Source: Aquimarina sp. MAR_2010_214 (GTDB taxonomy: Bacteria > Bacteroidota > Bacteroidia > Flavobacteriales > Flavobacteriaceae). From it: a stretch of 64,000 nucleotides of DNA. Made by a program: the position numbers and the translations under genes. Positions 34,039 to 44,879 of this stretch are shown piece after piece; the first letter of the stretch is position 1; each line of letters begins with the position of its first letter. The notes beneath the pieces are model-generated. The model saw only the letters and a program-made list of their open reading frames with translations. It searched no databases and was not told the DNA's origin. The stretch is from positions 434,001 through 498,000 of the forward strand of contig NZ_PJMS01000001.1 in assembly GCF_002846555.1 (NCBI RefSeq). The letters run 5' to 3'.

Positions 34039-35577
34039 GTGAACAACGAATTGATCATTAGGTCAGGTTCCTCTACGGATTTTGCCTTATTAAAGGATGG
34101 AAAACTAATTGAATTACATAAGGAAGAAGACGACAGTGATTTTGCGGTAGGTGATATTTTTATTGCCAAAATCCGTAAATCTGTCCCAGGTCTAAACGCC
34201 GCATTTGTTAATGTAGGCTATGAAAAAGATGCATTTTTGCATTATCATGATCTTGGTCCTCAAGTATCTTCTTTACTTAAATTCATAAAACGTGTAAGCA
34301 CAGGTAAATTAAAAAATTATTCTCTTAAGGATTTTCCTTTTGAGAACGATATTGATAAACACGGTACTATTACCAATGTGTTAAAATCAAATCAATCACT
34401 ATTAGTACAGATAGTAAAGGAACCTATATCTACCAAAGGTCCTCGAATTAGCTCAGAGCTTTCGATTGCCGGCAGATATATTGTTTTAGTTCCTTTTTCA
34501 AATCGAATTTCTATTTCTCAAAAAATAGAATCCTCAGAAGAAAAAGAACGCTTAAAAAGACTTGTAAAAAGTATTAAGCCAAAAGGTTTCGGAATTATTG
34601 TACGTACAGTAGCAGAAGGCAAAAAAGTAGCAGAACTAGACAAAGATTTAGAAAATCTAATGGGACGATGGCAAAGCATGTGCAAAAAACTGCACAAAGC
34701 TCATCACCCATCAAAAGTACTAGGTGAAATGAATAGAGCATCTTCTATATTAAGAGATGTATTTAACGACACTTTTACTTCTATTGTTGTAGATGATGAA
34801 GATCTCTGCAACCGAATCAAAGAGTATTTGCAAGAAATTGCTCCAAAAAAAGAGTCAATTGTAAAACTTCATAATCCTAAAATACCTGTTTTCGAGAAAT
34901 ACGGTATTGAACGGCAAATCAAAACAAGTTTTGGCAAGACGGTATCTATGAGTAAGGGTGCTTATTTGGTTATAGAGCATACAGAAGCGATGCATGTAAT
35001 CGATGTAAATAGCGGTAACCGATCTAATAAAGCCAAAAACCAAGAAGATACTGCACTAGAGGTAAACCTTATTAGTGCAGCTGAAGTAGCCCGCCAACTG
35101 CGTCTTAGAGATATGGGAGGTATTATTGTAGTTGATTTCATCGACATGAATAATGCTGACAACCGTAGAACTCTCTTCAACCAATTGCGAGAAGAGATGA
35201 AAGACGATAGGGCGAAGCATAAAATTTTACCGCCAAGTAAATTTGGCTTGATTCAAATCACGCGACAGCGTGTTCGACCAGAAATGAATATCAAGACCCG
35301 GGAAGAAGATCCTAATGGAATAAATGGCGAAGTTGAGGCGCCTATAGTATTGGTAGAAAAAATGAAAGTCGAATTAGAAAAATTAATTAAAAAAGATCAT
35401 AAAAAGATAACGCTTAGTGCGCATCCTTTTATTGCAGCTTTTTTAACCAAAGGATTTCCATCCACCCGATCCAAATGGTATTTTAACCATAAACGATGGG
35501 TAAAGATTGTACCTAGAGACGCTTACACGTATTTAGAATATCATTTTCACGATAAAAATGGTGAATTGATAAAATAA
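34039..35577 (+). CDS. rng: Ribonuclease G/E family endoribonuclease
   Basis: 512 residues with a GTG start (VNNELIIRSG). The S1 domain (GDIFIAKIRKSVPGLNAAFV) is followed by the RNase H-like and DNase I-like parts; HVIDVNSGN and GGIIVVDFIDM hold the catalytic Asp residues of the family. The length fits RNase G, without the RNase E scaffold tail. It processes rRNA and mRNA. It is convergent with nothing and ends at a strong terminator. Confidence 0.95.
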   Translation: MNNELIIRSGSSTDFALLKDGKLIELHKEEDDSDFAVGDIFIAKIRKSVPGLNAAFVNVGYEKDAFLHYHDLGPQVSSLLKFIKRVSTGKLKNYSLKDFPFENDIDKHGTITNVLKSNQSLLVQIVKEPISTKGPRISSELSIAGRYIVLVPFSNRISISQKIESSEEKERLKRLVKSIKPKGFGIIVRTVAEGKKVAELDKDLENLMGRWQSMCKKLHKAHHPSKVLGEMNRASSILRDVFNDTFTSIVVDDEDLCNRIKEYLQEIAPKKESIVKLHNPKIPVFEKYGIERQIKTSFGKTVSMSKGAYLVIEHTEAMHVIDVNSGNRSNKAKNQEDTALEVNLISAAEVARQLRLRDMGGIIVVDFIDMNNADNRRTLFNQLREEMKDDRAKHKILPPSKFGLIQITRQRVRPEMNIKTREEDPNGINGEVEAPIVLVEKMKVELEKLIKKDHKKITLSAHPFIAAFLTKGFPSTRSKWYFNHKRWVKIVPRDAYTYLEYHFHDKNGELIK

Positions 35578-35815: not shown

Positions 35816-36043
35816 TTAGCCAAAGTTTTCATATGCACAATTTTGTGAAGGCCTATTTGTTTGTCCATTACCCCCCAGGTTCGTTTTGGTTAAGGTACAA
35901 GAAAGAACCTCCGATGGCAATTCGATGGGGCCTACCACATGAATACAATATTCACTCCCGCCTCTAATTGTTATCCCATTAGATAGTTTTGTAATCTTTA
36001 ATTTTTCTAAATTTAATTTTTTAGTAATCGACTTTTTTTTCAT
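35816..36043 (-). CDS. RiPP precursor resembling Bacteroidota class I lanthipeptides
   Basis: 75 residues from the ATG at 36043. The leader MKKKSITKKLNLEKLKITKL has the L-x-L-x-K-x-x-I-x-x-L pattern of Bacteroidota class I lanthipeptide precursors and ends with IRGG, a double-Gly-type cleavage point. The following ~46-residue core has three Cys and eight Ser/Thr, possible ring partners. An in-frame start 16 codons upstream would give a non-leader N-terminus and is less likely. A LanB pair is encoded 5-8 kb away on the same strand. Modification and activity are inferred. Confidence 0.75.
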   Translation of the reverse strand: MKKKSITKKLNLEKLKITKLSNGITIRGGSEYCIHVVGPIELPSEVLSCTLTKTNLGGNGQTNRPSQNCAYENFG

Positions 36044-36178
36044 TATTCCTTTTTTGTTTCCGCTTACAAACATAATCAAAATAGCTCCCAAGTTTTATTT
36101 TTTTAAGCAATTACTAACCTGTTTTCCAGAATTGCTTATCACAAACCACTAACAACAAATACATTACAAAGAATCATC

Positions 36179-37897
36179 TCATTGTTGTTTTTCTAATTCA
36201 CGAATAAAATACGAAGGCTGTATCTTTTTTATTTTATAAAAAGATTTAGAAAAAGCATCTGTAGAATTAAATCCAATTTCTCTAGCTATAGCCTTAATCG
36301 TGTATTTCATAAACTTTTTATCTGTTTTAAGTCTATCGATACAATAATCTATTCTTAGCTCATTAATATACATACTAAAACTTTTCTTTCTGTAGAAATT
36401 AACCACTCTAGACAAATATTTTGAGTTTGTATTCATTTTTTTAGCCAAATCATTAGTGGTGATACTTGGTTTTAGATATCCTAAATTTTGTTCAAATTCA
36501 TCTAAATCATTTAAAATTTTATTCACAATATCTTCAGAGATTCCTATTGAATCTATTTCTGTGTAGGGTGATTTTTTTTCATTGTTTTTAACTTTTCCAG
36601 AACTAGAGTAATACAGTTCATCAAACCTTTTCTTATAATTCTTCTTTTTCTGATAATTAAAGATTAAAAAAACAAATGTTACTATACTAACTATAGCTAA
36701 AGAAATGATAATTCTGGTAGATGATTTTTTCGCTACTTGTAACGAATCAATGATTTCTTGTTTTAATGAAACAATAACTTCTTGTTTTTCAGAAAGAAGC
36801 CTTGGAGTATCATAATTCTGAACAACATTCTTGATAAGATATTTGTAATTACTATTTAAAACACTATCAATTTTAATAAGTTTTTCAATATATTTTAATT
36901 GATTATCCTTATCGTTATTGTCTTTATAATAATTAATTAAAACCTCATAACTCTCCCTAATTTCGGGAATAATCTGAGGGTTTTTCTGAAATATTTGATC
37001 TACCTTTTTATGTTCTTCAATAGCCTCTTTTTCAAAACCTAATGAAGATAGTGTCTTACCTAAATAAAAACGAGCTTGTCCTAAATTAGTTTTATCCCCA
37101 TTAATAGTTAATTCGGCAACTGCTTTTGTTAAACTATCTTTTGCTGTATCATAATTTGCTTTACTATATTGATTAATCCCCTCATTTAATACAAAATAAC
37201 ATTTAAAACTTTCTGCTTCAAGCACTATAGATTCTTTATACCCCAATGTATTTATTATAGAAGCAGAATCTAATATTTTATTAAAATTGTAGGATTCTGA
37301 TAATGCAAAAAGTGTGGTTAAATAATCATAAGGAGCTTTTTCTTTATATTTCGAATAAAATGAATAACACTCTCTTAAAGTTACTAACGCCGTTTCATTC
37401 TCCCCTAAAATTGCTTTTAGAATACCAATATTTTTCTTACTAGAATACACCAAGAATATATTATCATATTTTTTTGCTTCTTCATATAACTTTAAATAAT
37501 AATCAAATGCTTTTTTAAAATCTCCTTTATCAAAATAACTAAAAGCCTTATTTAAATATGCAAAAGTTGGATAGTTTTTTGTTTGGTGATTTTTAGTAAT
37601 TGCTATAATACTATCACAATATTTTAGTGATACATCACCTTTGCTTATGCTTGACAAAAAATAGTATCCGTCTGCAATTTTTATTGTATCGTTCTCTTTT
37701 TTTGCTTTAAGAAGATATTGATTAGCATAATTTACAGCAACAACAGAATCTAACTCATTTTCATAAAACTTATTGGTTAAAAACTGATAACTGTTGTCTG
37801 AGGATTCCTGAGTTTTTTGATAAGCAAGAATATCTTGCGTTTGACAAAACCAAAGAATCATTACTACACAAAAACTTCTACACATTATTTTCTTCAA
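36179..37897 (-). CDS. TPR-containing AraC-type transcriptional regulator
   Basis: 572 residues. An N-terminal hydrophobic segment (SFCVVMILWFCQTQDILA), then TPR helices from ~60 to 340 (for example AFSYFDKGDFKKAFDYYLKL and ARFYLGKTLSSLGFEKEAIE), one membrane helix near 395-415 and a C-terminal AraC HTH (AIAREIGFNSTDAFSKSFYK). Such membrane-bound TPR-AraC proteins sense a periplasmic signal and are often next to Bacteroidota RiPP precursors. It lies 136 bp upstream of the precursor, same strand, with a CAAATATA (-7) at 37962-37969. Confidence 0.9.
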   Translation of the reverse strand: MKKIMCRSFCVVMILWFCQTQDILAYQKTQESSDNSYQFLTNKFYENELDSVVAVNYANQYLLKAKKENDTIKIADGYYFLSSISKGDVSLKYCDSIIAITKNHQTKNYPTFAYLNKAFSYFDKGDFKKAFDYYLKLYEEAKKYDNIFLVYSSKKNIGILKAILGENETALVTLRECYSFYSKYKEKAPYDYLTTLFALSESYNFNKILDSASIINTLGYKESIVLEAESFKCYFVLNEGINQYSKANYDTAKDSLTKAVAELTINGDKTNLGQARFYLGKTLSSLGFEKEAIEEHKKVDQIFQKNPQIIPEIRESYEVLINYYKDNNDKDNQLKYIEKLIKIDSVLNSNYKYLIKNVVQNYDTPRLLSEKQEVIVSLKQEIIDSLQVAKKSSTRIIISLAIVSIVTFVFLIFNYQKKKNYKKRFDELYYSSSGKVKNNEKKSPYTEIDSIGISEDIVNKILNDLDEFEQNLGYLKPSITTNDLAKKMNTNSKYLSRVVNFYRKKSFSMYINELRIDYCIDRLKTDKKFMKYTIKAIAREIGFNSTDAFSKSFYKIKKIQPSYFIRELEKQQ

Positions 37898-38104
37898 ATT
37901 TTACAGCTATTATATTAAAATTATTGATGATTTATATTGGACTTCCTTGCAAAAAGAGGAGCAAATATACCATTTTCTGATTTTTTATTAAGGCTTCATC
38001 AAAAACAATATTAAAAACCTTATAGTCAAGTATTTACATTAAAAAATAAAACCTGTGATTCTGAGAATTTATGACGTGTTTTCTGGAATAGCGGATTACT
38101 TCTT

Positions 38105-38136
38105 TTGTTTCTCCCTTGATATTGAAGATATATTTG
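38105..38136 (+). promoter_or_regulatory. Promoter of the interrupted lipoprotein gene
   Basis: TTG (38105-38107), 21 nt, TATATTTG (38129-38136): a good fit to the Bacteroidota consensus, 48 bp before the ATG. The rest of 37898-38183 shows no gene. Confidence 0.6.
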
Positions 38137-38183
38137 CTCCAATCAAAATATAAGTTGCGCAACAAAACTAAAAAATAAATGAA

Positions 38184-38690
38184 ATGAAAAAAATTGGAGT
38201 ATTCATCGTAATATTATTGGCTACATTTTCTTGTTCAGAAGAACTAGATAACCATACCACTCAAGAAAATAGAATTCACGCAAAAGATCTAGAATTTTTA
38301 GGAGTTGAACATAATGAAGGGTTGAGAGATGCGTTCACATTCTTAAAGAAAAGTAAAGGCGCTAAAAACAACTTTGATACAAAAAAAGAATTACAAAGTC
38401 TAGAAGCCTTTTTAATATCAAGAACTAATTCTAACACAAAATACCCTAAAAAATCGAACCAAGTAGGAGTAGACTTGGTGAAAAAAATGTTTAAAAACCA
38501 AACATCTACTACCAAATTAGATTCAAAAGAAAAAAATGTATCTAATGCATTATCTCATGAAGAGAAGATATATTTAAATAAGTTAGATGAAGTATTAAAA
38601 AGTGCTAAAAATAAGGATGCTAATGTGTATAAAAGAATAGAAATCATAGAAGATGAGATAGAAAATAATCAAAAACTTAATAACAATCAA
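38184..38690 (+). pseudogene. Lipoprotein gene, 5' part (cut by an IS1595-family element)
   Basis: The first 169 codons of a lipoprotein: MKKIGVFIVILLATFSCSEE has a lipobox at Cys17. The remainder is helical and charged. The frame runs into the IS: the next codons GGC TAA belong to the left terminal repeat, so the present stop is supplied by the element. Joining codon 169 to 39752 restores one 404-codon frame without a stop. The truncated protein may still be made. Confidence 0.8.
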
Positions 38691-39743
38691 GGCTAAGTTC
38701 TAATTAGAATATGTTTTATCTTTACTTTATAAAAACGGAGAAATGATACCAGAAGATTTTAGAGATTTTTTCATTAGTTCATCGGCTTTGGTTCAATCAG
38801 AAATTGTTTCCACATTATTGGAGATCTCTACTGAGGGTTCAGCCCTGATTGATAGCAATCAGAGTAAAGCCATAAGCTGTCCTCATTGTAAGTGCAATAA
38901 AATTAAGGCTAATGGTAAGCTCAAAGGAGTACAGCGCTATGTTTGTAATACTTGTCATAAAAACTTTAGTGAAACTACCGGTAAGTTCTGGTACAACCTC
39001 AAGAAGAAAGACAAAGTTAATCGTTATTTATTCTGTTTACTCTCTGGATATAGTATTCGCAAGAGTGCCAAAGAAACAGGGATTTCTATTCAGACTTCTT
39101 TTGATTGGAGGCACAAATTACTTGTCTCCTTTGGGAGCGTAAGTGTGGATGAATTCCAAGGAATCCTAGAGAGTGATGATCTTTTCTTTGCTTACTCTGA
39201 AAAAGGGAATCGAAATTTGGATCGTCCTGCTAGAAAACGTGGCGCAAAGGCAAGTAAAGCTGGTCTCAGTAATGAAAAAGTAGCTGTGATAGCCAGTTGT
39301 GACCGATCAGGGAACAAAGATTTCAAAGTAGCTACCAGAGGTCGCATTAGTAAAAGTGACTTGGAGACTATATTACAAGGGAAGTTGGCTAAAGTAGAAA
39401 CCCTTTGTAGCGACAGTCACAGAAGCTATACTGCATTTGCAAAAGACAAGAAGGTAGCACACAAAAAATTTAATGCTTCGAAGGGTCAAAGAGCTGTTGA
39501 CAAAATATATCACGTACAAAATGTGAATAATATGGATATGCGTCTAAGGAAATTTATGGAGCCCTTCAATGGAGTGGCAACAAAATACCTTCAGAATTAT
39601 CTGAATTGGTTTTTAGTCTTAGAAAAAATAAAAAATTCAACCAGTAAAATGGCAACCGTAGCAGCTATAGCCTTTGCTTCCAATACTGCCTGGATGGAAT
39701 TTAAAAACATAGTAGTAAATAATATGCTTTTTAGAACTTAGCC
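38691..39743 (+). mobile_element. IS1595-family insertion sequence, 1053 bp
   Basis: The ends are perfect inverted repeats GGCTAAGTTCT (38691-38701) and AGAACTTAGCC (39733-39743); the similarity continues to ~22 bp with three mismatches. The flanks are acAATCAA and ttAATCAA, a 6-of-8 match for the 8-bp duplication this family makes. It carries one transposase gene. It inserted inside a lipoprotein gene. Confidence 0.88.
38743..39741 (+). CDS. IS1595-family transposase
   Basis: 332 residues. The N-terminal zinc ribbon is CPHCKCNKIKANG and CNTCHKNF; an HTH-like part (SIRKSAKETGISIQTSFDWR) follows, then the DDE domain of the ISXO2-like group, with ESDDLFFAYSEKGNR, CSDSHRSYTAFAKDK and HVQNVNNMDMRLRKFM. 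The stop codon lies inside the right terminal repeat. The frame is intact, so the element may be active. Confidence 0.92.
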   Translation: MIPEDFRDFFISSSALVQSEIVSTLLEISTEGSALIDSNQSKAISCPHCKCNKIKANGKLKGVQRYVCNTCHKNFSETTGKFWYNLKKKDKVNRYLFCLLSGYSIRKSAKETGISIQTSFDWRHKLLVSFGSVSVDEFQGILESDDLFFAYSEKGNRNLDRPARKRGAKASKAGLSNEKVAVIASCDRSGNKDFKVATRGRISKSDLETILQGKLAKVETLCSDSHRSYTAFAKDKKVAHKKFNASKGQRAVDKIYHVQNVNNMDMRLRKFMEPFNGVATKYLQNYLNWFLVLEKIKNSTSKMATVAAIAFASNTAWMEFKNIVVNNMLFRT

Positions 39744-39751
39744 TTAATCAA

Positions 39752-40459
39752 TTACTTGTATTATTTTCTGCAACTCAAACAGCTAAATACTCATACCAAT
39801 ATTGGTCCAAAAATGCACATAATTGGAAAGAATTGATTTCAGGAAAATCAAATTCAAAATCCAGAAAAGGATGGCTAGATGATTTATATACTGTAGTTGC
39901 AGCTGATGCTGGTGGAGCGGTAGGCGGAGCAGTAGGTGCATTAGCCGTTAATCTTATCCCTGGTTTGGGGCAAGTAGCTTACGGAGGTGCTATTGTAGGA
40001 GGTGCTATAGGAGGATCTGCAACTGCTGCTTTTATGATCGTTGCAACTGGTAACGCTGGAAGTTATACACATGGAGCCTTATCAAGTTTCTTCCTAAATA
40101 AACCTGAATATAACGTTGTTGCAAATATAAAAGACTATAGCAAAGTTAAACTTCTAAACACCAATCCTCAACTTTCTCAAACAGATCTCTCTGGAGGGTG
40201 GAATCGTGTAGTATTATATATCGGAACTAGTTCTGACACCAGTATTGGACTTTATGCTTATATATTACAATATGGAGGGTTCATCAAGGGTTATTTAGAA
40301 CATTATCAACATCAAGGTTCTGGAAATCCAATCTTTAAAAGGATAAAAGTAGCGGAAACCACACCCGATAATATCTGCTATAATGTAATTGCATGTTCAG
40401 GAGGTCCTTTAACCACCAATGACGGTCAAATTACCTTTTTTCCTATTCCACAAGAATAA
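39752..40459 (+). pseudogene. Lipoprotein gene, 3' part with glycine zipper
   Basis: The remaining 235 codons of the interrupted gene, open from the IS end. A SWKK-like motif (NAHNWKELISG) precedes WLDDLYTVVAADAGGAVGG and a run of small-residue repeats (GAVGALAVNL, GGAIVGGAIGGS) that forms a long GxxxG glycine zipper, as in membrane-inserting bacteriocins. A ~140-residue C-terminal domain follows. Without the IS it is in frame with 38184-38690. A TTG near 39833 could be an artificial start but is unlikely to be used. Confidence 0.75.
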
Positions 40460-40573
40460 AAAATCAAATTGAATTTATATAGCTCTCCCCTTTGAAATGA
40501 GCATAGGGGAGGGTAAATCAATATGTTTTCATCTCTAAAATCAATTAAGATTTTAAGCCATAAAAAAACTATT

Positions 40574-40897
40574 ATGAAAATCATAACTAAGTACATAAAA
40601 ATCATAGAGCGTATGGATCAGCTTATTCGTTTACAAGCTACAGGTCCTCCAGAAGATTTTGCATCTCGTTTGTGTTTATCAAAAACCAAATTCTATAGAA
40701 TGCTTAAGCTAATGAAAAAATTAGATGCTCCCATAATATATGATATTGATATAAAAAGTTTTGTATATGAAGAACCTGTAGGGTTTTCTTTTGGATTTTA
40801 TGCATATGAAGATACTAAAGTAAATACAGGTGCATTTGCAGAGGACAAAAATATAATAAAACAATCCGACCTTGCAAAAAAGTCAGCAGGGTTCTAA
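40574..40897 (+). CDS. Small HTH protein of a Bacteroidota RiPP-associated type
   Basis: 107 residues from the ATG at 40574 (MKIITKYIKIIERMDQLIRL); a longer frame starts 17 codons earlier but is less typical. EDFASRLCLSKTKFYRMLKL looks like a helix-turn-helix, preceded by LQATGPPEDF, and a C-terminal beta stretch YEEPVGFSFGFYAYED. Small proteins with this plan occur next to Bacteroidota peptide clusters; the function is unknown. Confidence 0.7.
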   Translation: MKIITKYIKIIERMDQLIRLQATGPPEDFASRLCLSKTKFYRMLKLMKKLDAPIIYDIDIKSFVYEEPVGFSFGFYAYEDTKVNTGAFAEDKNIIKQSDLAKKSAGF

Positions 40898-40947
40898 ATT
40901 ATATATTAAGCAAGCACTATTAAAACATACAACATAATGTAAAAATT

Positions 40948-41820
40948 TTATTGATGTAAGTTATAACTAGCTTTTGTTTTTTGGTATCGCATCAAAAAAT
41001 CATAACACACTAACTCATAAAATCGTTGTTTGGATCTAAAGGCACGATTCACCAGCATATGTATATAACTGCTTAGTAAATCGTCTAATGACATTTCTAA
41101 TTGACCGTCCTGATGTACTTTCATGATGTTTTGCACTACTCCTAGTGATTGCTTTGCTTTGTGATCTAGTAAATCATCTAAAACTCCATAGTCTTCCTGT
41201 ATAGATGTTGTCTCTAAAAAAGAAGCAAGCTTGCTTTTTAACCCTCTGTACTTTTTATCTAATTGTTTATTTAATCCCTTATCAGCGTGAAATTCTCTTT
41301 TAAACCCCTTACTGTTTCGGGTAACCAGTTTTAGTTTTTCTTGTTGTTCATAGTTAAAACTGTTTAATAGCCTATCAATCGCTTTTACTACAAACAAAAA
41401 GTACAATTCTTCATCTTCGATCAATGCTATTGCATCCAGCAGCATGGTACTATCATAAAAAAACAAGGTTTCAGAGGCATCTATAGTGTTTGTACCATAA
41501 CGTTCTAATTCTCTTATATAAGTATCAGTTTGTAATTTATATACCACTCGTTGTTCTATATACCGCTGCATTACTGCATTGATATGCAGGATCACAGTTC
41601 CTATAGCATGTATATCGGGCAGATGAAATCGTATCCTGATATGAAAATCAGGATCTCCATAGCGTATAAAAAACCAGGAGTCGATCAGGCCTTTTTCCAG
41701 TAACTGTGATGTAAGTGGTTTTATAGTTTCGGTAAGGAGCACATCAGACGTACGGGCACCACAATATATTTTGTAATATAGCCATTCGTCTCCCAGTATA
41801 TATGTTCTTTTTGTGCTCAT
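40948..41820 (-). CDS. LanB elimination half (thiopeptide-type bacteriocin biosynthesis domain)
   Basis: 290 residues. WLYYKIYCGARTSDVLLTE followed by SWFFIRYGDPDFHIRIRFHL is the SpaB_C/thiopeptide-type domain that eliminates glutamate from glutamylated Ser/Thr to give dehydroamino acids. In full-length LanB it is the C-terminal domain; here it is a separate gene 73 bp downstream of the N-terminal half. Together they total 1051 residues, the size of one LanB. Confidence 0.9.
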   Translation of the reverse strand: MSTKRTYILGDEWLYYKIYCGARTSDVLLTETIKPLTSQLLEKGLIDSWFFIRYGDPDFHIRIRFHLPDIHAIGTVILHINAVMQRYIEQRVVYKLQTDTYIRELERYGTNTIDASETLFFYDSTMLLDAIALIEDEELYFLFVVKAIDRLLNSFNYEQQEKLKLVTRNSKGFKREFHADKGLNKQLDKKYRGLKSKLASFLETTSIQEDYGVLDDLLDHKAKQSLGVVQNIMKVHQDGQLEMSLDDLLSSYIHMLVNRAFRSKQRFYELVCYDFLMRYQKTKASYNLHQ

Positions 41821-41854
41821 GTAATATTCCTTTGTTTTATGCTTTTATTATTTT

Positions 41855-41880
41855 GTCATTCCTGCGTAGACAGGAATCTA
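41855..41880. repeat. REP-like short palindrome between the LanB halves
   Basis: GTCATTCCTGCGTAGACAGG then AATCTA: ATTCCTG (41858-41864) pairs with CAGGAAT (41871-41877). This resembles the dispersed GTCATTCCTGCG-type palindromes of many bacteria. It lies in the gap that separates the two halves of LanB. Confidence 0.7.
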
Positions 41881-41893
41881 AAAGTGACCTTAA

Positions 41894-44179
41894 TCATACC
41901 TCAACTGCTTTTGATGCTTCAGTTTTCTTTCTTTCCTGTTCCAGTTTTTCTTTATTAAACATCGAGATTATAAATTGATTGGTATAACTCATACCTTCTT
42001 GTTGTACAATACCTTTTTGTTCATTAGACTGCACTTCTTCAGCAAATAAAAACTCCTCTAGTCTACATCTCTTTTTATTTTTTATGGTATCTAACCACAT
42101 ATTTACCGAATTGACATTTTCTAGATTGATTAATAAGGTATTATCTCCATCAATCAATTGTACCATCACAGGAATATTATGTTTTGCTCTCCAGGCAACT
42201 ATCATTTCCATTTTGTCTTTTTCATTGTTCTCTTTCAAAAAAGGCAAGTCAGCCGTAGTAATATCCCATCTGGCTTTTTCTATGATAAACTCTTTATATA
42301 CCACTCTGGGTAAAAAGGTATGCTTCTCTAACACTTCTCCCCAATAAAACCCAAGACCTGATCGGCCGCCTTGTTTTTGCATATCACATAAGAAATGATA
42401 TACAGGTAATGCATTGGCACTATAATTATGAGCATTGGTTAGGCGAGGAATAATTTCTTTATTAAGTGTTTTGGAGCGTAATACAATACGACCATATTGC
42501 ACTGATATCATCAAATCTGATATCGCTACTTGTTGCTCTATGGGCACATTAGATTTTCCTAAATATGGAATTTCATAATCCCGTATCGTTGCCCTTCGAA
42601 TCACATTACCCGTTCTGGATTCTGGTAAATGAACGACTTCGGCCAGGATCTGATTTTGATACATTTCTTGTTCTACAGCTGCAATATCCTGTACGTGTTT
42701 TAAAATATTCTTATTTCCGGTAGAAAACCGCCCTAACAGATTTGCCGCAGAGGATCCCCCTATTGAAGAAAATATCATTTTTTCTTCACCATCAATCGTT
42801 GCAATTTGAACGATCGTAGACATAGTATCGGGCAAATCACTCCAATCTAATTCGAGATGCTCAAAATCCTTATCTTCGAGTAATAGTGTATACTGGTTCT
42901 CTTTATGTATATCTTGTAATTTCTTGTTTAGAATTTCTTGTACCGCTGTCCATTGCATTTCTTGTCCTGAAACCGGTTTGGAAGGAATATATAGATCATC
43001 TAAAAAAGAAGTGGAGTCATTGGCATCCTGGTGCTGTAGGTATCCAATACCTACCTCGGTATCTAAGACTGTCGCCAGAGGAATTTCCTGAGTTTCATAT
43101 CGCTTTACAAATGCATCTTTAAACCGTTGCAAATGCGTTTCTGATGAAGCACTACTTATTCTATTTAACAGTTCGAGTGCTCGTGTTAACTTATATCCCC
43201 ATCGTATATTTAATTGATTAGATTGCGCCTGAGTATACATATCGGCCTGAAAAAGATATTTCAACTCAAAAGGAGTTTCCAGCTGTGCTATTCGCTCACT
43301 AAGCCTTAGGTATTCAACAGTTTCATTACCCAGTTTCTGATCTACTTGTTCCAGAAATTTTTTATAGTGCTGAATCTCTGTTAGTATAGCATCGGCACCT
43401 TCTATTTGACTCAAACAATCTTCTAATTGTTCTAAAAAATCATCTCCGGTTACAGAGGGTTCTATCTCACTCACCAGGATTTGATTATCTATCAATTCAC
43501 TTATAAATTCTGAAGCCTCTTCATAGGTAATTTCGTCATCAACCAAGAGGGAAGCTAATTCCTTTATTTTTTTACCAGACCTAGCACTTTCTATTATGGC
43601 TTCAAGATACTCTGCATATGCAACTGCCTCGATAGAATGTTCTCGCCTATTATACTGATTATATTTGTATTCGATATATCGATATTGATCTCCGATTTTA
43701 TAAAGACTGTTATTGGTATACCATAATAATTGTTTTTTGATTGCTTCTTCTTTGGCAAGCTTTTGTGAGAAGGCTACCAAAAAGTTCATATCAAACCGAG
43801 TCTGTCTTTGGTGTTTATCATAATTAGCTAATTCTATAGCGGTAGCTTTACCAAATGTTCCTATACTACAACCGGCAAACAACCCAAAAGGAGTACAACG
43901 AGAACTCATCCTGGATAAATATTTTAATAAAGAAGATTCTAGTCGTTTACTCTTTTTAACATCTTTAAGCTGTCCTGATAGCCATTTCTCAATTTCGGAA
44001 AATAGCTCAGGTGAAGCCAAGAAAATAGCTTCTCTGATGTTGTCATTTTTCCAGACATCTTTAAAGGTTGCTATTGTTATATTCTGTTCTCTTGTAAGAT
44101 CATAATAAAAGTCTAAAGGTAAAATAGGAGTTCTTAGACAAAACTGATCAAAAAAGGTATATGGATTTTTTAGTTTCAA
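41894..44179 (-). CDS. LanB glutamylation half (lantibiotic dehydratase N-terminal domain)
   Basis: 761 residues. The signature SRMSSRCTPFGLFAGCSIG at ~89-107 is the LanB dehydratase block; the domain uses glutamyl-tRNA to glutamylate Ser/Thr in a precursor peptide. Later blocks such as YDKHQRQTRFDMNFLV and RWGYKLTRALELLNR also fit. It ends before the elimination domain, which is encoded separately. The likely substrate is the precursor at 35816-36043. No LanC, protease or transporter gene is adjacent. Confidence 0.92.
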   Translation of the reverse strand: MKLKNPYTFFDQFCLRTPILPLDFYYDLTREQNITIATFKDVWKNDNIREAIFLASPELFSEIEKWLSGQLKDVKKSKRLESSLLKYLSRMSSRCTPFGLFAGCSIGTFGKATAIELANYDKHQRQTRFDMNFLVAFSQKLAKEEAIKKQLLWYTNNSLYKIGDQYRYIEYKYNQYNRREHSIEAVAYAEYLEAIIESARSGKKIKELASLLVDDEITYEEASEFISELIDNQILVSEIEPSVTGDDFLEQLEDCLSQIEGADAILTEIQHYKKFLEQVDQKLGNETVEYLRLSERIAQLETPFELKYLFQADMYTQAQSNQLNIRWGYKLTRALELLNRISSASSETHLQRFKDAFVKRYETQEIPLATVLDTEVGIGYLQHQDANDSTSFLDDLYIPSKPVSGQEMQWTAVQEILNKKLQDIHKENQYTLLLEDKDFEHLELDWSDLPDTMSTIVQIATIDGEEKMIFSSIGGSSAANLLGRFSTGNKNILKHVQDIAAVEQEMYQNQILAEVVHLPESRTGNVIRRATIRDYEIPYLGKSNVPIEQQVAISDLMISVQYGRIVLRSKTLNKEIIPRLTNAHNYSANALPVYHFLCDMQKQGGRSGLGFYWGEVLEKHTFLPRVVYKEFIIEKARWDITTADLPFLKENNEKDKMEMIVAWRAKHNIPVMVQLIDGDNTLLINLENVNSVNMWLDTIKNKKRCRLEEFLFAEEVQSNEQKGIVQQEGMSYTNQFIISMFNKEKLEQERKKTEASKAVEV

Positions 44180-44402: not shown

Positions 44403-44879
44403 ATGTATAAGAATCCCATTACATCAATAACTGTAGCTGAAGCATTACGAAAAATGGAACATTATTGTGCTTATCAAGAACGTTGTCATAAAGATGTAGA
44501 GGATAAACTAAGGACGATGAAACTTATTCCTGAGGCTAAAGAAAAAATCATTATACATCTTCTGGATCAAAATTTCCTTAATGAAGAACGTTTTGCCAAA
44601 GCCTTTGCTCGAGGAAAATTTAACATCAAAAAATGGGGTAAACAACGTATAGTTAGAGAACTTAAATTTCGTAACATCTCACCGTATAATGTAAAAACGG
44701 CACTTAAAGAAATACCTGAAAAAGATTATCTTGAGACTTTTCACAAACTTGCCGAAAAAAAATACAATACTCTTACCGAGCAAGACAAAAACAAGAAACG
44801 CAAAAAACTTGTAGATTATCTTTTATATCGAGGCTGGGAAACACATCTGGTTTATGAAAAAGTAAATGAGTTCTTTTAA
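44403..44879 (+). CDS. recX: Regulatory protein RecX
   Basis: 158 residues from the ATG at 44403 (MYKNPITSITVAEALRKMEH); the longer frame upstream has an atypical Cys/Trp-rich stretch. Three-helix repeats, with YCAYQERCHKDVEDKL, FLNEERFAKAFARGKFNIKK and YRGWETHLVYEKVNEF, are typical. RecX modulates RecA filaments. Divergent from the LanB gene; ends at a strong terminator. Confidence 0.93.
   Translation: MYKNPITSITVAEALRKMEHYCAYQERCHKDVEDKLRTMKLIPEAKEKIIIHLLDQNFLNEERFAKAFARGKFNIKKWGKQRIVRELKFRNISPYNVKTALKEIPEKDYLETFHKLAEKKYNTLTEQDKNKKRKKLVDYLLYRGWETHLVYEKVNEFF

Follow-up and report, generated by a model that had tools for sequence, protein, structure and literature searches.

The closest described relatives of the system reported here are the class I lanthipeptide clusters of Bacteroidota. 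According to the survey by Walker et al. 2020, a split LanB dehydratase is a normal form in this group, and precursors were sought within seven genes of LanC (PMC7268733). Because of this limit, systems such as the one described below would have been missed in that survey. We analyzed a stretch of 64,000 nucleotides from Aquimarina sp. MAR_2010_214 (contig NZ_PJMS01000001.1, positions 434,001 to 498,000), referred to as the window. At 35816-44179 it carries a putative lanthipeptide precursor, a regulator and both parts of a LanB. An earlier note on this DNA had described an incomplete class I locus and offered three explanations: a dehydrated but unringed product, rings closed by an enzyme encoded elsewhere, or decay. 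Based on the genes, their sites, and their conservation, selection and co-occurrence, we think it reasonably likely that the window locus provides the dehydration step of a class I lanthipeptide system whose parts are dispersed and whose rings are closed in trans. The explanation of an enzyme elsewhere is thus the best supported, since a LanC and a C39 exporter were found at an unlinked, conserved locus that lacks LanB.

On the minus strand, the locus encodes the glutamylation part of LanB, its elimination part, a one-component regulator with tetratricopeptide repeats and an AraC-type output domain (TPR-AraC), and the precursor, in this order; approximately 3 kb with plus-strand genes separates the regulator from the elimination part (Table 1). 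Profile searches confirmed the regulator and both LanB halves predicted in the earlier note, the repeat domain of the regulator scoring just under its cut-off. The predicted precursor also held up: it has a leader ending in GG, a core of 46 amino acids (aa) with three Cys and eight Ser/Thr, and counterparts in two related genomes. The glutamylation part of LanB aligns with MadB (9g04, E 1.1e-50) and NisB (4wd9, E 1.2e-32), and the elimination part aligns with MadB residues 767-1019. The RTP (MadB), R-x3-R, D and GRFS positions, which we take to be the catalytic residues of MadB and NisB, are kept in these alignments. As in other class I systems, the dehydratase thus comprises a glutamylation part (PF04738) and an elimination part (PF14028). 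The term split is correct insofar as there are two proteins; it does not denote a defect. A broken gene was ruled out, because split LanB is a known form (PMC7268733) and the two frames are separate in all 19 loci compared.

The source genome (G000; other G numbers denote related genomes, and L numbers fetched loci) is a single contig of 5,982,454 bases. At E<=0.001 it contains two matches each for LanB (PF04738), LanC (PF05147) and the C39 peptidase. The LanBs lie in the window and at a pinensin-family locus, and the LanCs at the pinensin-family locus and at a further site, locus 2. All LanC and C39 matches are outside the window, in agreement with the absence reported in the earlier note. 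Locus 2, at 4.155 Mb, comprises a LanC, a C39 exporter (Pfam), HlyD and a TPR-AraC regulator, together with three precursors whose leader is of the window type; the genome-wide PF04738 search found no LanB there. The distance from the window LanB to this LanC is 3.68 Mb one way and 2.30 Mb the other way if the chromosome is circular. A class I cluster with LanC in the same cluster is therefore not what the window contains, and the description as incomplete applies locally but not to the genome, which provides LanC, C39 exporter, HlyD and precursors 3.68 Mb away. The motifs WCYG and CHG, presumably the zinc ligands of LanC, are present in all six LanCs of this site that were read, including that of locus 2.

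Two further groups of loci were seen in these searches. The pinensin-family locus at 5.33 Mb (L016, G000:C1:5322000-5341000) has a leader matching NF038180 with 46.7 bits, a LanB frame of 901 aa, an extra PF14028 protein and a LanC-containing frame of 652 aa. GG-leader peptides that resemble class II bacteriocins (MRxLxxxEVxxVNGG) occur near LanC and exporter genes (L015 10180-10763, L103-L107); one of them scores 9.2 bits with TIGR03949, below the cut-off of 21.5.

LanB and LanC each hold a separate conserved chromosomal site. We compared the surroundings of LanB in 15 other genomes with a LanB of at least 70% identity. In 12 of them the fetched stretch reaches the RNase E/G gene, on the same side as in the window; in the remaining three the pair lies elsewhere (G055), the contig ends first (G032) or the contig is only 3.3 kb long (G036). 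In four genomes (G058, G022, G008, G019) recX lies directly upstream of LanB and the pair stands bare. Upstream of LanB, G006 and the seven nearest relatives carry HlyD-like and exporter genes (a C39 domain was confirmed in the three of these eight exporters that were tested, L082, L086 and L089), and in all eight there is a 4-base overlap between the elimination part and a TPR-AraC gene. The window has neither the adjacent HlyD and exporter genes nor this overlap. For the locus-2-type LanC, surroundings were compared in 16 genomes: the release-factor/metallopeptidase side is common to all 16, and the side with a pyridoxal phosphate-dependent lyase was seen in 11, the fetched stretch being too short to reach it in the other five. 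No precursor or C39 exporter is annotated directly beside LanC in G058, G006, G008, G022 and G021; in G008 one side holds several unrelated genes, and in G021 a 220-aa frame resembling an ATP-binding cassette ATPase lies about 6.6 kb away.

The separation of the two enzymes was then quantified in 66 genomes of the genus (protein queries, E<=1e-10). A LanC was found within 10 kb of LanB for 1/16 window-type LanBs (at least 70% identity), 3/11 at 52-70%, 27/32 at 40-52% and 6/11 below 40%. In the sole linked window-type case, LanC is 6.4 kb away and only 26% identical to the locus-2 type; a locus-2-type LanC was within 10 kb in none of the 16. Despite this distance, the genes occur together. Among the 58 genomes that are at least 90% complete, 43 have LanB and LanC, five LanB only, none LanC only and ten neither, so that LanC is present in 43/48 genomes with LanB vs 0/10 without (Fisher p 6e-8, kinship ignored). 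With the broader PF05147 model, two of the five LanB-only genomes, G010 and G019, do show a LanC domain, located in long proteins (frames of 1002 and 654 aa); the model gave no match in G012, G030, G059 and the incomplete G036. The LanC of the conserved site is present in 14 of the 16 genomes with a window-type LanB. One further arrangement was observed in G016 (A. longa; L092, L224), where two different LanB pairs are adjacent; the second is accompanied by a 26% LanC of its own and by an exporter-like gene.

We also estimated the ratio of nonsynonymous to synonymous substitution rates (dN/dS) against G017. The values were 0.094 for LanB, 0.109 for the elimination part, 0.078 for LanC and 0.038 for the locus-2 exporter, and 0.104 and 0.006 for the neighboring MutY-like and RNase E/G genes. 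Judged by these ratios, LanB and LanC are under purifying selection. A precursor linked to a regulator (L018 vs G064) gave 0.50, and its regulator 0.21.

If the enzymes act in trans, precursors need not be adjacent to them. A leader profile (A1), built from 18 leaders, replaced a regular-expression search that had missed the window precursor. It matched in all 18 chosen genomes, a result that is partly circular since 17 of the 18 model leaders came from these genomes. Among 40 further genomes, one of which (G020) had supplied a model leader, the leader was found at E<=1e-4 in 28/30 genomes with LanB vs 0/10 without (p 8e-8). In G000 there are nine matches at E<=0.3 with this model, which includes G000 leaders, and the window precursor shares its leader type with the others. 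In each of G058 and G022 one LanB and one LanC were found, both standing bare. Leader peptides (E<=1e-4) are located on other contigs, four in G058, one in G022 and three in G008; the stretches of 5 to 10 kb around these eight contain no LanB or LanC, and six of the eight peptides adjoin TPR-AraC genes. An orphan precursor with four Cys and no adjacent modification gene lies at 1.71 Mb in G000 (L021 4174-4389), between a LytTR response regulator and a gene of the Asp/Glu racemase family. It is syntenic, with its four Cys, in eight relatives (L158-L164, L280), and its dN/dS is 0.04-0.09 vs two of them.

The window precursor itself, queried without its first Met, matched no family. With NF038153 (class I lanthipeptide) it reaches 16.7 bits, the cut-off being 22, which one counterpart in G024 passes with 25.8 bits; the pinensin leader model NF038180 was not among its NCBIfam matches, there being none at E up to 0.1. 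The counterpart in G006 adjoins a 77%-identical regulator, and all three Cys are aligned with those of the window precursor. Two counterparts in G024 adjoin a 57%-identical regulator, with only one of three Cys invariant. Because the counterparts adjoin related regulators in both genomes, the window precursor is more than a chance frame. It shares 61% identity with that of G006 at a dN/dS of 0.11, a ratio that is weak evidence given the saturated dS. The earlier note had named two observations that would refute its reading, a precursor frame not conserved in relatives and a LanB pair always occurring with a different precursor. The frame is conserved in G006 and G024, which speaks in favor of that reading. 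Other precursors were indeed found with the LanB pair in its nearest relatives, and in G058, G022, G008 and G019 none is adjacent.

The window TPR-AraC protein has a hydrophobic N terminus, TPR helices at residues 37-326, one transmembrane segment at 396-414 and a C-terminal HTH_18 domain. Its AlphaFold model (mean predicted local distance difference test 87, predicted template modeling score 0.61) shows a TPR superhelix at 37-326, a long helix at 330-430 that holds the transmembrane segment, and a helix-turn-helix (HTH) bundle at 455-571. In all 12 TPR-AraC proteins compared, the transmembrane segment starts at residue 380-397, one having a second candidate at 437; an N-terminal hydrophobic stretch exceeds the same limit in two of the 12 and was seen by eye in the rest. 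The closest solved folds are TPR domains of LGN in complex with partner proteins, and Rap receptors, some with bound pheromone, rank lower. TPR-AraC matches number 6-16 in five genomes with LanB and are absent from three without, and a short precursor-type peptide lies within 900 bp downstream of 42 of the 65 TPR-AraC frames longer than 100 aa in the loci covered (8/12 and 34/53). From its topology, its fold and this proximity, the protein probably acts as a periplasmic sensor of the exported peptide and regulates its own module. It resembles Rap-type (RRNPP) receptors, which use a TPR sensor and turn up in both sequence and fold comparisons with its TPR part; unlike them, it is a membrane protein with an AraC-type HTH. 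The match to Rap reflects general TPR likeness, since LGN and other eukaryotic TPR proteins score higher.

Taken together, the following sequence of steps is suggested. The LanB pair at the kept recX-RNase E/G site would dehydrate Ser and Thr of GG-leader precursors, not just the adjacent one but also those encoded at various other places in the genome. The locus-2 LanC, whose zinc-ligand motifs are intact, would then close rings on Cys, and the C39 exporter of locus 2 would cut after GG and secrete the product. Exported peptide may be sensed by the TPR-AraC protein, resulting in autoregulation of its own module. The order of these steps and the sensing role are inferred, as is the joint action of the window LanB and the locus-2 LanC on one peptide.

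Several observations weigh against ring closure in trans by the locus-2 enzyme. A common substrate of the window LanB and the distant LanC is postulated, and the LanC of the pinensin type might in principle close the rings in its place. Members of the window LanB clade occur in genomes without a LanC match. G019 and the incomplete G036 have a window-type LanB without the LanC of the conserved site; conversely, G004, G001 and G021 have that LanC without a LanB of at least 70% identity. Two genomes with LanB (G011, G042) gave no leader match. Furthermore, the p-values given above overstate the associations, since the genomes belong to a single genus and are not independent.

A different explanation is that the LanB pair acts without LanC and yields a linear product with dehydroalanine or dehydrobutyrine, possibly the signal for the TPR-AraC protein, while Cys stays free or forms disulfides. 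We consider this rather unlikely for the window. It draws on a LanB tree of 62 rows (window, L082-L100, L168-L175 and 38 of 47 named loci; quick method, midpoint root; L246 and L253 left out for lack of a usable LanB, L226 as a copy of L098, L249 as too short). The window LanB falls in a branch of 29 rows with support of 100 in the Shimodaira-Hasegawa-like approximate likelihood ratio test, which holds all 19 LanBs that have a TPR-AraC gene and no LanC within 10 kb, together with eight that have neither and two of the 30 LanC-linked LanBs. The first split in this branch is formed by four Flavobacterium operons with the order LanB, elimination part, TPR-AraC, short precursor and S9 peptidase, followed by a C39 exporter and HlyD in L241 and L242. 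The cores of the four precursors lack Cys (that of L257 scored below the profile limit and was read by eye). PF05147 gave no match in three of these four genomes (completeness not stated) and two matches in F. cupreum. Within Aquimarina, G012, G030 and G059 likewise lack a match, and the LanB of G059 is placed apart from this branch on a long line. No LanC was found in six genomes with LanB or in the incomplete G036, and the profile-found cores beside their regulators have 0-2 Cys. These eight cores (0, 0, 0, 0, 1, 1, 2 and 2 Cys) compare with a median of three in 40 cores beside TPR-AraC genes of LanC-bearing genomes (p 2e-4; related peptides are not independent, three of the 40 are also Cys-free, and the Cys-free peptide of F. 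cupreum is not among the 40). A dehydrated but unringed product, as proposed in the earlier note, is accordingly plausible in those relatives that have LanB and Cys-poor cores but no LanC. The window core, however, has three Cys, all aligned in G006, and the genome contains a conserved LanC with same-leader precursors adjacent to it. As a tentative idea, which we hold to be somewhat doubtful, the window LanB clade may have evolved as a LanC-independent dehydratase tied to TPR-AraC receptors; its Flavobacterium members would make short, Cys-free, linear dehydro-peptide pheromones, and in Aquimarina the enzyme would have become a hub for many modules, with ring closure regained through the unlinked LanC.

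Decay of a formerly complete cluster that lost exporter, regulator and cyclase appears improbable. A recent insertion sequence (IS) and a frame found in G000 alone do separate the LanB pair from the regulator, and the HlyD gene, exporter and overlapping TPR-AraC gene of the eight relatives are missing, so this part of the idea fits the window. It does not fit the enzymes: both LanB parts are intact at a dN/dS of about 0.1, and the bare pair persists in four other species. Moreover, since the locus-2-type LanC is not within 10 kb of LanB in any of the 16 genomes with a window-type LanB, its absence from the window is not a recent loss. We give even less credence to the notion that the LanB pair serves only distant precursors, the window precursor and its regulator having arrived at this site as a module of their own. 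In G024 the related regulator and precursors lie beside recX while its LanBs are elsewhere, and G006 carries this module plus another that overlaps the elimination part, in favor of this notion. The window precursor has the same leader type as the others, though, and the same enzyme should therefore bind it.

Table 1. Features of the window locus and its flanks (positions in the window).
Feature	Position	Strand	Basis or remark
RNase E/G gene bounding the LanB site on one side	34039..35577	+	PF10150, 338 bits
Precursor (LanA-like), 75 aa, GG leader end	35816..36043	-	Counterparts in G006 and G024 near related regulators; shared leader
TPR-AraC one-component regulator	36179..37897	-	PF12833, 44 bits; TPR_12, 28.7 bits (cut-off 30.1)
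Lipoprotein-like frame running into the IS end	38184..38696	+	Lipobox by eye; no family above cut-off
IS1595-family element, 1053 bp, inverted ends; transposase 38743-39741	38691..39743	+	NF033547, 168 bits; ends and copies
Gly-rich frame, 208 aa	39833..40459	+	1/57 genomes searched (G000 alone)
Small protein, HTH-like by eye	40574..40897	+	BLAST relatives in the neighborhood of several loci with TPR-AraC genes or GG peptides
LanB C-terminal (elimination) part, separate protein	40948..41820	-	PF14028, 232 bits; TIGR03891, 228 bits
LanB N-terminal (glutamylation) part	41894..44179	-	PF04738, 512 bits
recX, other edge of the LanB site	44403..44879	+	PF02631, PF21981

The IS1595 element, which the earlier note did not mention, is identical over 1053/1053 bases to two other copies in the fetched G000 loci (transposase genes L015 15866-16864 and L199 6554-7552), so its insertion is recent. 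All three copies lie at TPR-AraC or lanthipeptide loci; the other two have perfect 8-bp target duplications, and the flanks of the window copy agree at six of eight bases. The element was rejected as an explanation for the distance between LanB and LanC, because their separation is clade-wide and the insertion recent. The Gly-rich frame is perhaps the remainder of a gene cut by this element. For the small HTH protein of the earlier note, the frame was found, and its HTH was seen by eye only, the family search giving no match. A kinship of the lipoprotein-like frame to peptidases beside other modules was dropped (BLAST identity 28-34% with composition correction off; no Pfam peptidase). Peptidases do accompany TPR-AraC modules, mostly those with Cys-poor cores: S9 (prolyl oligopeptidase) in L092, L098-L100, L213, L217, L173, L241, L242, L257, L264, L278 and L281, and S8 (subtilase) in L168, L177 and L215 (Pfam). 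They are possible processing or degrading enzymes. The exporter, S9 and elimination labels in relatives came first from BLAST against our own reference set, in which one S9 reference was the L241 protein itself, and Pfam later confirmed those tested. A graspetide reading of a locus at 4.71 Mb (L017) was not verified, its candidate protein having no Pfam match.

Among the matches listed in a search of titles and opening abstracts of the open-access literature, there was no dispersed class I system and no TPR-AraC-linked LanB without LanC. Mining that starts from LanC and requires a nearby precursor, as the 2020 survey did (PMC7268733), would miss both dispersed systems and LanB systems without LanC. 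If our reading is true, Aquimarina and Flavobacterium genomes contain unrecognized modified peptides, and products per genome are underestimated. It would also mean that Bacteroidota have a peptide-signaling family built on dehydroamino acids, for which candidate receptors are named here. Two questions become testable, namely whether class I enzymes can serve as a shared hub in trans, and whether LanB alone can give a functional product.

Compared with known systems, the window locus shares most with the Bacteroidota class I clusters, including pinensin and the LxLxKx5L GG-leader precursors: as that survey describes them, these have a split LanB, an LxLxK leader ending in GG, a frequent C39 exporter, and cores with Cys and Ser/Thr (PMC7268733). 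Unlike in those clusters, LanB, LanC and precursors lie apart here, and TPR-AraC regulators accompany the modules. Goadsporin, thiopeptides and other azole-linked systems also use a split LanB-type dehydratase, but together with YcaO azole chemistry (PMC10676384). None of the LanB loci here was seen to have a YcaO nearby, but no search aimed at YcaO was made. Goadsporin, thiopeptide and similar split-LanB systems are not known to have a LanC. The arrangement of one modifying set, one leader and many distant precursors recalls the prochlorosins, a class II system in which the single enzyme ProcM serves many scattered precursors with a shared leader (PMC7268733, PMC12328550). The system described here differs from them in being class I, with two enzymes at two unlinked sites, an unrelated leader, and precursors that often have their own regulator.

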